From NCBI GenBank assembly GCA_021804085.1, contig JAJZKM010000003.1, forward strand, positions 1 through 63,505: a stretch of 63,505 nt of DNA, written 5' to 3'. This document shows, piece by piece, positions 1-7,576 of the stretch. Source of the stretch: a bacterium (GTDB lineage Bacteria; Patescibacteriota; Saccharimonadia; Saccharimonadales; UBA4665). Within the stretch, counting starts at the first letter, position 1, and the number at the start of each line of letters is the position of its first letter. The translations under genes were made by a program, and so were the position numbers. A model generated the notes under the pieces. That model made no database searches and was not told the DNA's origin. It worked only from the letters and a program-made list of their open reading frames with translations.

Positions 1-181
1 GGTTATTTTCTAAGATTAAGTTACGGTTGCCGTCTACTACACCTTGCTTTAACCAACCGTAAATAGTTCTAGTGTTAACATTATATTTTTCTGCTGCTAT
101 AGTTGCTCTCATGCCATTATTTCTAACATTATCTAGTATCTCAGTCTTAATACTAGGATCAATTGGAACAACTGCTCCCAT
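1..181 (-). CDS. Transposase OrfA-like helix-turn-helix protein, 3' end beyond the window edge
   Basis: Manual reverse-strand translation MGAVVPIDPSIKTEILDNVRNNGMRATIAAEKYNVNTRTIYGWLKQGVVDGNRNLILENN; typical IS OrfA HTH; runs off the window start. Confidence 0.6.
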   Translation of the reverse strand, partial: MGAVVPIDPSIKTEILDNVRNNGMRATIAAEKYNVNTRTIYGWLKQGVVDGNRNLILENN

Positions 182-223
182 GTTTAAAATTCCTCCCAAA
201 CTTACTAACTTAATTGTACCTTT

Positions 224-637
224 GTGCTAGCACAATGTGTCCAGTATATTGGTAGCCTGACACTACGCCATAGCTCTGAGCTGACGCACGAAGCTTTGCT
301 CGATGCCCTGAGCAAACACCCCAGTCCTGCAATATTACATAGTGACCAAGGCAGTGAGTACCTAAGCTACAAACACCAGGAGCTCTGTGACAAGATGGAG
401 ATTCAACTCAGTGCCAGTAACAAGGCTAGTCCTTGGCAGAATGGTTTCATGGAACGTTGGTTTGGTGGCTTTAAACGGGAGATGGGCAACCTTACTCAAC
501 ATCAAGATATATCCCAACTACACGAAGCCATTGTCATGCAGATTTACTACTACAACCACCGACGCATTCACAATGCTTTAGGCATGAGCCCAGCGGCTTA
601 CGCCGCTACGCTCCAAGCGAGACAAACTGTTCGCTAA
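224..637 (+). pseudogene. IS3-family-type transposase OrfB (rve/DDE integrase core), 5'-truncated remnant
   Basis: LHSDQGSEY and SPWQNGFMERWFGGFKRE ... YNHRRIHNALGMSPAAYAA motifs; N-terminal part with the first catalytic Asp is missing. Confidence 0.8.
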
Positions 638-834: not shown

Positions 835-1149
835 ATGAGCATGGATTCATGTAACTGCTGCACACCAAACTCTGAAACCACCAAGCAGATTGAGAAGCTT
901 GGCCCTTTAATGAAGGTTATAGGCGAGGATAGTCGTCTTAGAATACTTTGCGCATTGCAGTGTAGCGACCACTGCGTCTGCGAACTAGAGGAGCACACCA
1001 AGTTATCACAAAGCCTTATATCTCATCATCTAAAAGACTTAAAGACTACTAATATGGTTAGTGATGCTAAAAAAGGCCAGAAAGTATATTACTCTCTGAC
1101 CGATTTTGGCAGTAATGTTATGAAGTCGTTGCTGACTATAAAAGCCTAG
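835..1149 (+). CDS. ArsR/SmtB-family metal-responsive transcriptional regulator
   Basis: Winged-helix ArsR pattern (LGDxxRLRIL-like, CVCELEEHTKLSQSLISHHLKDLK); Cys-rich N-terminus CNCCTP. Confidence 0.85.
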   Translation: MSMDSCNCCTPNSETTKQIEKLGPLMKVIGEDSRLRILCALQCSDHCVCELEEHTKLSQSLISHHLKDLKTTNMVSDAKKGQKVYYSLTDFGSNVMKSLLTIKA

Positions 1150-1159
1150 TATTTAGAAC

Positions 1160-1336
1160 TTATTTATCTAGTTCCTCAAGAACTTCTTTTAACTCTTTTT
1201 CTAACCGATCTTTACGAGCTTCTAGGCTCTCGGAAGACTTAGAGCAAGAAAGACCACACTTACTGCAACAATCACATGGTTTCTTTTCAGCTTTCTTATC
1301 TTCGCAACTACATGGCTTTTTATCTAATGATTGCAT
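1160..1336 (-). CDS. 58-aa Cys-rich metallothionein-like small protein (absent from the ORF track)
   Basis: Manual reverse-strand translation MQSLDKKPCSCEDKKAEKKPCDCCSKCGLSCSKSSESLEARKDRLEKELKEVLEELDK*; GAGG ribosome-binding site, promoter and operator-like repeat upstream. Confidence 0.75.
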   Translation of the reverse strand: MQSLDKKPCSCEDKKAEKKPCDCCSKCGLSCSKSSESLEARKDRLEKELKEVLEELDK

Positions 1337-1370
1337 GATTATTCCTCATTTATCAATACTAATATTAAAC

Positions 1371-1415
1371 ATGAACGCACATTCATATATTAATCACCGG
1401 CTTTTTGTTTGTCAA
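1371..1415 (-). promoter_or_regulatory. Sigma70-like promoter (TTGACA-17 bp-TAATAT) with an ATGAA-N6-TTCAT ArsR/SmtB-like operator abutting the -10
   Basis: On the minus strand: -35 at 1415-1410, -10 at 1392-1387, inverted repeat at 1386-1371 (ATGAATGTGCGTTCAT). Confidence 0.7.
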
Positions 1416-1459: not shown

Positions 1460-1612
1460 ATGGTAGAAAAACAGCTTTTCCAATGTTAGGTGTGTTGTTT
1501 GCGCTATGAAAACGAAGACATAGCAAAGAAGTGTGAAGCGTATTGCATAGAGCACAATGGTTGTAGTTTAGATATTACGAAACTTTCAGTGGAACGGATA
1601 ATCAGTTCTTAA
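1460..1612 (+). pseudogene. Cys-rich small ORF with an in-frame TAG (possible 40-aa ORF from GTG at 1490)
   Basis: Translation MVEKQLFQC*VCCLRYENEDIAKKCEAYCIEHNGCSLDITKLSVERIISS*. Confidence 0.35.
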
Positions 1613-4005: not shown

Positions 4006-5217
4006 ATGGAAACAATGAATAGTGGTGATAGATACATTCTAACGGTTAATGCCGGGTCATCGAGCATTAAGCTTGCGTTGTTTGTTAAGGATGATATTAC
4101 TCAAAAAGTGCTTGTAGCATCCGTGGAAAACATAGGTCAGTCATCGGCAAAGATGGTAACATTCGATGGCACAAAGCCCATTGACGCAGATAACCATTCG
4201 GACGCTACCAAGCTACTGACAGAGTGGCTAACTTCGCAAATTGCCGCTAATTCTATTGTCGCTGTTGGTCACCGCATTGTGCATGGTGGGCAGTTTTATC
4301 ATGAAACCTTAGCATTCTCTGACGAGGTATTGACTAATTTGCGAAAGCTTGTGGCCCTTGACTCTGAGCATCTGTCGATTGAGCTGGAATTGGTTACAGT
4401 TTTTGGAGAGTTATTGCCACGGGCGCAGCAAGTTCTCTGCTTTGATACGGCTTTTCATCATAATCTACCGACACGTTCTAGGTTGTTGCCAATCCCGCGC
4501 CATTTTGAGGCGAAAGGTTTCCGCCGGTACGGTTTTCATGGTCTGTCGTATGCCTACATTCTAGAAGAGCTGCGGCGTGTTGAGGGCGAAGTAGCGGCGA
4601 ATGGTAAAGTTATTATTGCTCACTTGGGAAGTGGCGCGAGCTTAGCTGCTCTCCAAAACGGCAAGCCAATTGACACGACGATGAGCATGACGCCTGCATC
4701 GGGTATTTCGATGAGCACCCGCTCCGGTGATCTCGATCCAGGATTGGGACTATACCTTGCAAACACCGAAGGCTATAACGCTGAACGCTTTAATCGCATG
4801 GTTAATTTCGAGTCGGGCTTGCTCGGTGTGTCCGAAACGACCGCCGATATGAAAAAACTACTTGAAATTGAGACTGATGATGGGCGCGCGAAAGACGCAG
4901 TAGATATATTTTGCTATCAAACTAAAAAAAGTATTGGCAGTTTTGTCGCAGCATTAGGCGGCTTGAATACTCTGGTCTTTACTGGTGGCATGGGTGAGAA
5001 CGCTCCAAAGATCAGGGCTAGGATATGCGAAAGACTGGAGTTTTTTGGTGTTATTATTGATGATGGGCGCAATCAGCAAGGCGACCGTCTTATATCGGCG
5101 GATGGTAGCCAGGTTGGCGTGCACGTTATTCATACCGACGAAGCAATAACTATTGCGCGCGAAACAGCTGAGCTTATAAAAAAGGATCAGGGGGTGGCTT
5201 ATGAATCCAATCAATGA
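4006..5217 (+). CDS. ackA: Acetate kinase
   Basis: [49 protein letters not shown] motifs. Confidence 0.95.
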
Positions 5218-7576
5218 AAATCAACTAGACGAAAAAACACTAAATAATATTGACGCCTATTGGCGAGCAGCCAATTATTTATCCGTCGGTCAAATATATC
5301 TATGTGATAACCCGCTTCTTAAAGAGCCATTAAAATTAGAGCATGTTAAAAAATTACTGCTTGGACATTGGGGAACAACACCCGGCCAGAACTTCATTTA
5401 CGCACATCTGAACCGCATTATTAAGCAGTATGACCTCAATATGGTCTATATTTCTGGGCCTGGTCACGGTGGCCCGGCGCTTGTTGGTAATGTATACCTT
5501 GAGGGTACGTTTAGCGAATATTATCCTACGGTTACTCAAAATGAAGCCGGTCTTAAAAAACTATTCCAACTATTTTCATTTCCTGGTGGTTTATCCAGCC
5601 ATGTGTCACCGCAGGTGCCCGGTTCAATGCACGAAGGTGGCGAGCTTGGCTACTCACTCAGTCATGCCTTTGGCGCGATTTTAGATAATCCCGATCTTAT
5701 AACGGCTTGCGTTGTTGGTGACGGTGAGGCTGAAACTGGGCCGCTCGCAACTGCCTGGCATTCTAACAAGTTCATAAATCCAAAAACAGACGGTGCGGTT
5801 TTGCCGATATTACACCTCAACGGCTACAAGATTAGCAATCCTACCATCCTGGCTCGCATTGAACGGGATGAGCTGGAGCAATTATTTCGAGGCTACGGTT
5901 GGACGCCTTACTTTGTGGAAGGGGATGATCCCATGCAGATGCACCGGCTTATGGCTACGAAGCTCGATGAAGTCGTACAAGAGATCAAGAGAATCCAAAG
6001 TAATGCGCGTGATAACAATGATACTACCCGACCGCGGTGGCCTATGATCGTGCTCAATTCACCCAAAGGCTGGACGGGACCGAAAATGATAGGTGGCAAA
6101 CAGATTGAGAACAACTTCCTTTCGCATCAGGTGCCACTGGCCGTAGATGTTGATCATCCCGATAACGTAGTGGTGCTCGAAGAATGGCTTAAAAGCTACA
6201 GACCCGAAGAATTATTTACCGAATATGGAGCCTTATTGCCAGAGCTTGCTGCGCTTGCGCCATCGGGCGCGCACCGCATGGGTGCAAACCCTCATGCTAA
6301 TGGCGGTGGCCTGATGCGAGAGCTTGACTTGCCAGACTTTCGGGATTACGCCGTTACTATAGAGCAGAGGGGCGTCAGTAACGAGGGCAATGTGCATGCG
6401 CTTGGCCCTTATCTGCGCGACGTTATAAAGCAAAATCAGGCTCAGCATAATTTTAGAATATTCGGTCCAGACGAACTTATCTCTAACAGACTAGAAACAG
6501 TTTTTGAGGCAACAGACCGGCAATGGTCAGCCCGAATAAAATCAACTGACGAAAATCTGGCAATAAGTGGTGCCGTTTTAGACTCTATGCTCAGCGAGCA
6601 CCAGGCGGAAGGCTGGCTAGAAGGTTACTTGCTTACAGGCAGGCATGGCATACTCCACAGCTACGAAGCGTTTATCCGTATCGTAGACTCTATGGTCAAC
6701 CAACATGCCAAATGGATTAAGATGTCCAATGAATTACCCTGGAGACATGCCATACCATCGCTCAATTATCTATTAACATCGCACGTCTGGCGACAGGACC
6801 ATAACGGCTTTACGCACCAGGATCCAGGTTTTATTGATCATCTGCTCAACAAGAAAGCCACGGTGATACGTATTTACTTGCCCCCGGACGCAAACACGTT
6901 GCTGTCAACGATTGATCACTGCCTAAAGAGTCGTAATTACATTAATCTCACGATCACCGGCAAGCATAATAGTCCACAATGGCTATCTATGGATGAAGCG
7001 ATTGAGCATTGCACTAAAGGAGTGAATGTATGGGATTGGGCAAGCAATGACGATGGCGACGAGCCTGATGTAGTTATGGCTTGCGCTGGTGATGTTCCTA
7101 CGTTGGAAACCTTGGCGGCAGTATCAATTCTTAGGGAGCACTTACCAGATCTGAAAGTTCGTGTCGTGAATGTTGTTGACCTTATGCGACTGGAGTCTGA
7201 TACTGAGCACCCACATGGATTAAGCGATCCTGAGTATGACGCCTTGTTTACAAGGAATAAACAGATCATTTTTGCGTTTCATGGCTATCCTTGGGTTGTT
7301 CACCGGTTAACCTACCGCCGTACTAATCGCAATCTTCATGTACGGGGGTATAAAGAAGAAGGGACGATTACGACTGCGTTTGATATGACCGTAAAGAACA
7401 ACATGGATCGTTTTGACCTAGTATTGGATGTGATTGATCGTTTAGGCCTAACTGGAGATAAGGCTTTACAACTGAAACAACTAATGCAAGATAAGCTCAT
7501 TGAACATGAAGAGTACATAAAAATCCACGGCATAGATATTCCGGAAGTCCGCGATTGGCAATGGGTGTCGCTATAG
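5201..7576 (+). CDS. xfp: Xylulose-5-phosphate/fructose-6-phosphate phosphoketolase
   Basis: [47 protein letters not shown] motifs; overlaps the ackA stop. Confidence 0.95.

Follow-up and report, generated by a model that had tools for sequence, protein, structure and literature searches.

The question raised by this locus is whether a short, cysteine-rich open reading frame (ORF) that faces an ArsR-family gene is genuine and, if so, whether the two together constitute a metal-response unit. The window (i.e., the whole stretch of 63,505 nucleotides analysed) is contig C8 of a 652-kb assembly (G000, 81% complete), and its reverse strand carries at positions 1160..1336 a 58-aa ORF whose location, sequence and seven cysteines are exactly as given in the initial annotation; 10 bp separate its stop codon from that of arsR. 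Metal buffering in very small bacterial genomes is scarcely described and, as far as titles and abstracts tell, the 17 library papers naming both metallothionein and Patescibacteria include none on a metallothionein of these bacteria, to which G000 would belong by its size and gene content. We consider it likely that the locus is a two-gene metal-response cassette, which would pair an ArsR repressor of the alpha3N type with a metal-derepressed thiolate buffer.

The number of cysteines is in itself unremarkable (of the 474 frames of 40-100 aa that run from stop to stop in the window, 9 have at least seven) and was dropped as an argument, so that the case for the gene relies on conservation. Homologues of the 58-aa protein (72, 67 and 60% identity) were recovered from three other genomes, namely G080, which belongs to another genus of the same family, and G007 and G006, which share the genus of G000; hence, the gene is carried by four genomes from one family and two genera. 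Between the G000 and G080 copies the differences fall mostly on third codon positions (14, 3 and 20 at positions 1, 2 and 3), and the pairwise dN/dS ratios (NG86; pairs with finite dS) range from 0.04 to 0.22. Conservation and dN/dS together rule out a spurious ORF, and these comparisons indicate that it is a genuine gene under purifying selection. Both the ORF and its cysteine pattern, on whose recurrence in relatives the initial annotation had staked its proposal, are thus conserved in three further genomes.

In the alignment of the four proteins five of the seven window cysteines are invariant (C9, C11, C21, C23 and C27; core pattern CxC-x9-CDC-x3/4-C), so that the seven-cysteine cluster first described holds for this core, while C24 and C31 vary among the homologues (which have 5, 5 and 8 cysteines in total). 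Four leucines (L38, L45, L49 and L56) are likewise invariant and lie in a helix that the structure model places at residues 38-57 (pLDDT >90 over most of it), the N-terminal cysteine region being of low confidence. We found no family in Pfam or NCBIfam at E<=1 (metallothionein models included) and no significant chain match in the PDB, although several coiled-coil proteins were among the weak, non-significant PDB matches to the helix; the sole PHROGs match had E=0.61, and no full-length homologue of the gene was present among phages, plasmids and viral contigs. Compared with SmtA/BmtA-type traits, the protein possesses CxC motifs and is devoid of aromatic residues and histidine, yet it has five invariant cysteines (few for a metallothionein, in a family of four sequences) and a long C-terminal helix, which probably mediates dimerisation. 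Judged by sequence, the protein is outside the known metallothionein families, and the earlier suggestion of an uncharacterised small-protein family is borne out by its absence from Pfam, NCBIfam and the PDB.

The small gene is preceded by a promoter (TTGACA-N17-TAATAT, 1387..1415, reverse strand) that matches 10 of 12 consensus positions, with the TTGACA present upstream at all four loci, and by a ribosome-binding-site-like GAGG (1344..1347, reverse strand) read directly in the sequence. Between them lies a predicted ArsR operator, the palindrome ATGAA-N6-TTCAT (1371..1386), which is found 32-52 bp ahead of the ATG at 4/4 loci, where it overlaps the -10/start region (in G000 it abuts the -10). 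Since its centre (N6) differs among the loci, the conservation of the palindrome goes beyond mere sequence relatedness. The version extended by a 3' AT (ATGAA-N6-TTCATAT) occurs once in the 652-kb G000 assembly, at the small gene, and in G080, G007 and G006 at the small gene and at most one further place. A second operator-like site (TGAG-CATGGA-TTCA, 836..849), putatively autoregulatory, lies over the arsR start codon; TGA(A/G)-N6-TTCA overlaps this codon at all four loci, three of them with the imperfect half TGAG. Moreover, five ArsR paralogues that share its cysteine set (loci L010, L028, L029, L011 and L012) have TGAA-N6-TTCA overlapping their own start codons. Given its presence at the small gene, at the arsR start and at the five paralogue starts, the TGAA-N6-TTCA-type site very probably serves ArsR proteins of this class as operator, and a motif of the type predicted by the initial annotation is thus found at the small gene in every locus. 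The proteins encoded by the five paralogues start near M-N-M-x-S, and their loci contain thioredoxin-like and ArsP-like permease genes, or SLAC1-type channels.

On the opposite side, a scan matched an intrinsic-terminator-like hairpin with a T run for the small-gene transcript (1069..1101, reverse strand) inside the arsR coding sequence. For the antisense hairpin we calculated -16.9 kcal/mol in G000, -17.5 in G080, -12.7 in G007 and -2.8 in G006 (where the hairpin is absent), and the proportion of synonymous recodings that were equally stable amounted to 0.0002, 0 of 5000, 0.008 and 0.54, respectively. We stress that the segment was picked after the scan (0.6 chance matches expected) and that the copies in G000 and G080 resemble each other closely, and we regard its role as terminator of the small gene as suggestive only.

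The product of the facing gene (835..1149, forward strand, 104 aa) has an ArsR-type winged helix-turn-helix, as recognised by HTH_5 (E=3.9e-15) and the metalloregulator model NF033788 (79.8 bits, cut-off 55), and is 81-92% identical to its three homologues. Nine relatives all retain two N-terminal cysteines (C8, C9) and, in the alpha3 region, the pair C47-x-C49. The alpha3N signature consists of two cysteines (CxC) in the alpha3 region and one or two N-terminal ones (PMC8790569); hence, by its cysteine signature (as distinct from a residue-by-residue alignment to CadC), the repressor matches the CadC/AztR-type alpha3N set (N-terminal CC plus CVC). A search of the PDB with the ArsR profile matched CadC (1u2w) with E=1.5e-11, and the AlphaFold model (pLDDT 44) was too poor for site geometry. 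The alpha5 signature DxHx10Hx2E is absent from the protein, which has no histidine after residue 65, and the SmtB/CzrA-type repressor initially envisaged is therefore not borne out: the alpha5 ligands are missing and the cysteines point to the CadC/AztR-type alpha3N site. Sensors of the alpha3N kind have a preference for thiophilic ions, Cd and Pb among them (PMC8790569); arsenic is a possible inducer, given the ArsP neighbours of the paralogues.

The small gene and arsR lie tail to tail in 4/4 genomes. When the ORFs of the four contigs (minimum length 50 aa) were all compared with one another, they were the only clear matches common to the four, alongside the frame antisense to arsR, which recurs on some contigs; a further weak match (24% over 190 residues) involved a tRNA-synthetase-like frame. 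The neighbourhood survey proposed at the outset thus returned the co-occurrence of the two genes and nothing else common to all four genomes, and as the neighbours are not common to the four contigs, the cassette sits in differing contexts. Its distribution is narrow: the small gene is found in 4 of 93 family genomes, no further full-length homologue was encountered in 391 order and 381 phylum genomes (the samples overlap), and an ArsR scan of genome contigs recovered only the three known relatives. Matches at order and phylum level with E between 0.002 and 0.05 were rejected, being partial and several of them having internal stops. The three relatives are the MAGs TL1-5.bin107, FK5.bin11 and TL1-1.bin26; the codes TL (Tongling pyrite mine) and FK (Fankou Pb/Zn mine), and a bin named TL1-5, appear in a study of acid-mine-drainage sediments (PMC7779479), so that, by their sample codes, the relatives probably come from Chinese mine-drainage sites.

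Among candidate core-gene controls rpoB was available in two genomes only and phosphoketolase in the window genome only, and P-type ATPases were used instead. Between G000 and G080 (different genera) ArsR is 92% identical and the ATPases 58-64%, whereas G000 and G007 (same genus) share 85% identity in ArsR, 84% in rpoB and 72-81% in the best-matching ATPases. ArsR is thus closer across genera than within the genus, the reverse of the ATPases, which suggests (assuming orthology of the ATPases) that the cassette moved between genera. G000 and G080 have in common a third, shorter gene, which encodes a small CxxC protein (weak DUF7128-like match). In the window (1460..1612, forward strand) only a remnant is left, which an in-frame TAG interrupts after nine codons; in G080 the gene (L002, 1223-1384, reverse strand) is intact and divergent from that of the cysteine-rich protein. 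Transposase fragments (a helix-turn-helix at 2-199, reverse strand, and an integrase-core rve at 224-637, forward strand) occupy the contig end immediately next to the cassette and are a possible vehicle of its mobility. Farther along the window, a phosphoketolase-like gene (5201-7576, forward strand) adjoins an acetate-kinase-like gene (both named from sequence); the former had no matches in G006, G007 and G080.

We infer a feedback loop in which an ArsR dimer would occupy the palindrome over the -10/start region of the small gene and repress it, while ArsR bound to the second palindrome, over its own start codon, would keep its own expression low. A soft metal or metalloid (Cd, Pb, Zn, Cu/Ag or As(III)) would bind the N-terminal CC and the alpha3 CVC and release the repressor, whereupon the 58-aa protein would be made and would chelate the ion via the CxC-x9-CDC-x3/4-C thiolates, probably as a helix-held dimer; as free metal falls, repression would return. 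The metal-buffering switch proposed earlier is self-contained as a regulon, but it is not the sole metal defence of the cell, as a heavy-metal-type (TPCP-motif) P-type ATPase is encoded in all four genomes (in G000 on another contig and without an ATGAA-N6-TTCAT-type operator). A broader and rather doubtful extension is that a hitherto undescribed family of metal-binding mini-proteins with a disordered CxC-x9-CDC-x3/4-C head and a dimerising helix forms, with its own alpha3N repressor, a mobile cassette among metal-exposed bacteria with small genomes, in which the convergent layout, by placing the buffer's terminator within the repressor gene, would also couple buffer and repressor through antisense RNA.

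That same ATPase lends some weight to another role for the 58-aa protein, namely that of a metallochaperone, or of a metalloid carrier, akin to ArsD or to copper chaperones, which would pass its ion on to an exporter: a five-cysteine core fits one or few ions, and the helix could serve as a docking element. We consider this unlikely, since the ATPase is located on a separate contig, the exact operator occurs in G000 only at the small gene (hence the ATPase is not visibly co-regulated) and no chaperone fold is predicted in the structure model. That the small gene is linked strictly one to one with this ArsR gene, and with nothing else, could alternatively mean that the protein acts on the repressor itself, by stripping its metal or binding it, as an anti-repressor or reset peptide of a mainly regulatory circuit; the terminator-like hairpin, which at three loci would render the small-gene RNA antisense to the 3' end of arsR, fits such a role. 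As ordinary operator control explains the linkage equally well, G006 has no hairpin and an ArsR-binding motif is not known, we hold this to be very improbable.

Slightly lower still we place the view that the module responds not to metals but to stress by thiols or sulfur, with the cysteines acting as redox or persulfide switches. The G007 cassette does adjoin Fur-like, glutaredoxin and YgaP-like genes, and a paralogue in G058 adjoins rhodanese-like and glutaredoxin-like genes (named from sequence), but neighbours differ from locus to locus, the ArsR scores against the BigR and TsoR models are far under their cut-offs, and the alpha3 CxC with the N-terminal CC is the signature of an alpha3N metal site (PMC8790569). 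The metal-response cassette, if confirmed, would represent a minimal sensor-plus-buffer unit of ~580 bp, for which no sequence relation to known metallothionein families was found. It seems able to cross genera and is compact enough for work on the whole unit in E. coli.

With CadC and AztR the repressor shares the N-terminal cysteines and the alpha3-region CxC, and CadC controls a P-type efflux ATPase. AztR also controls one (PMC8790569), whereas the linked target here is a small cysteine-rich protein. Control of metallothionein by ArsR-family proteins is established for SmtB/SmtA, BxmR/BmtA and AzuR/NmtA (PMC8790569). The locus appears analogous to smtB-smtA of Synechococcus PCC 7942 in combining an ArsR/SmtB repressor, an adjacent small cysteine-rich gene and an inverted repeat near the start site, but that pair is a divergon with genes ~100 bp apart (PMC8790569), while the genes here converge with a 10-bp gap; moreover, SmtB senses through alpha5, a site absent from this ArsR, and the effector matches no Pfam metallothionein model. 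A similar analogy, with control of the buffer here being proposed, may be drawn to BxmR-BmtA/Bxa1 (Oscillatoria brevis) and AzuR-NmtA (Anabaena), in which the effector is a metallothionein; ours matches no curated metallothionein family. BxmR includes an alpha3N site, as does our repressor by its signature, but it also has alpha5, and AzuR has only alpha5 (PMC8790569), which this ArsR lacks; in layout, the convergent cassette differs from both the operon of BxmR and the unlinked arrangement of AzuR. We reason that the cassette is best read as working like smtB-smtA while differing from it in its unrelated effector, its sensing site and its convergent layout.
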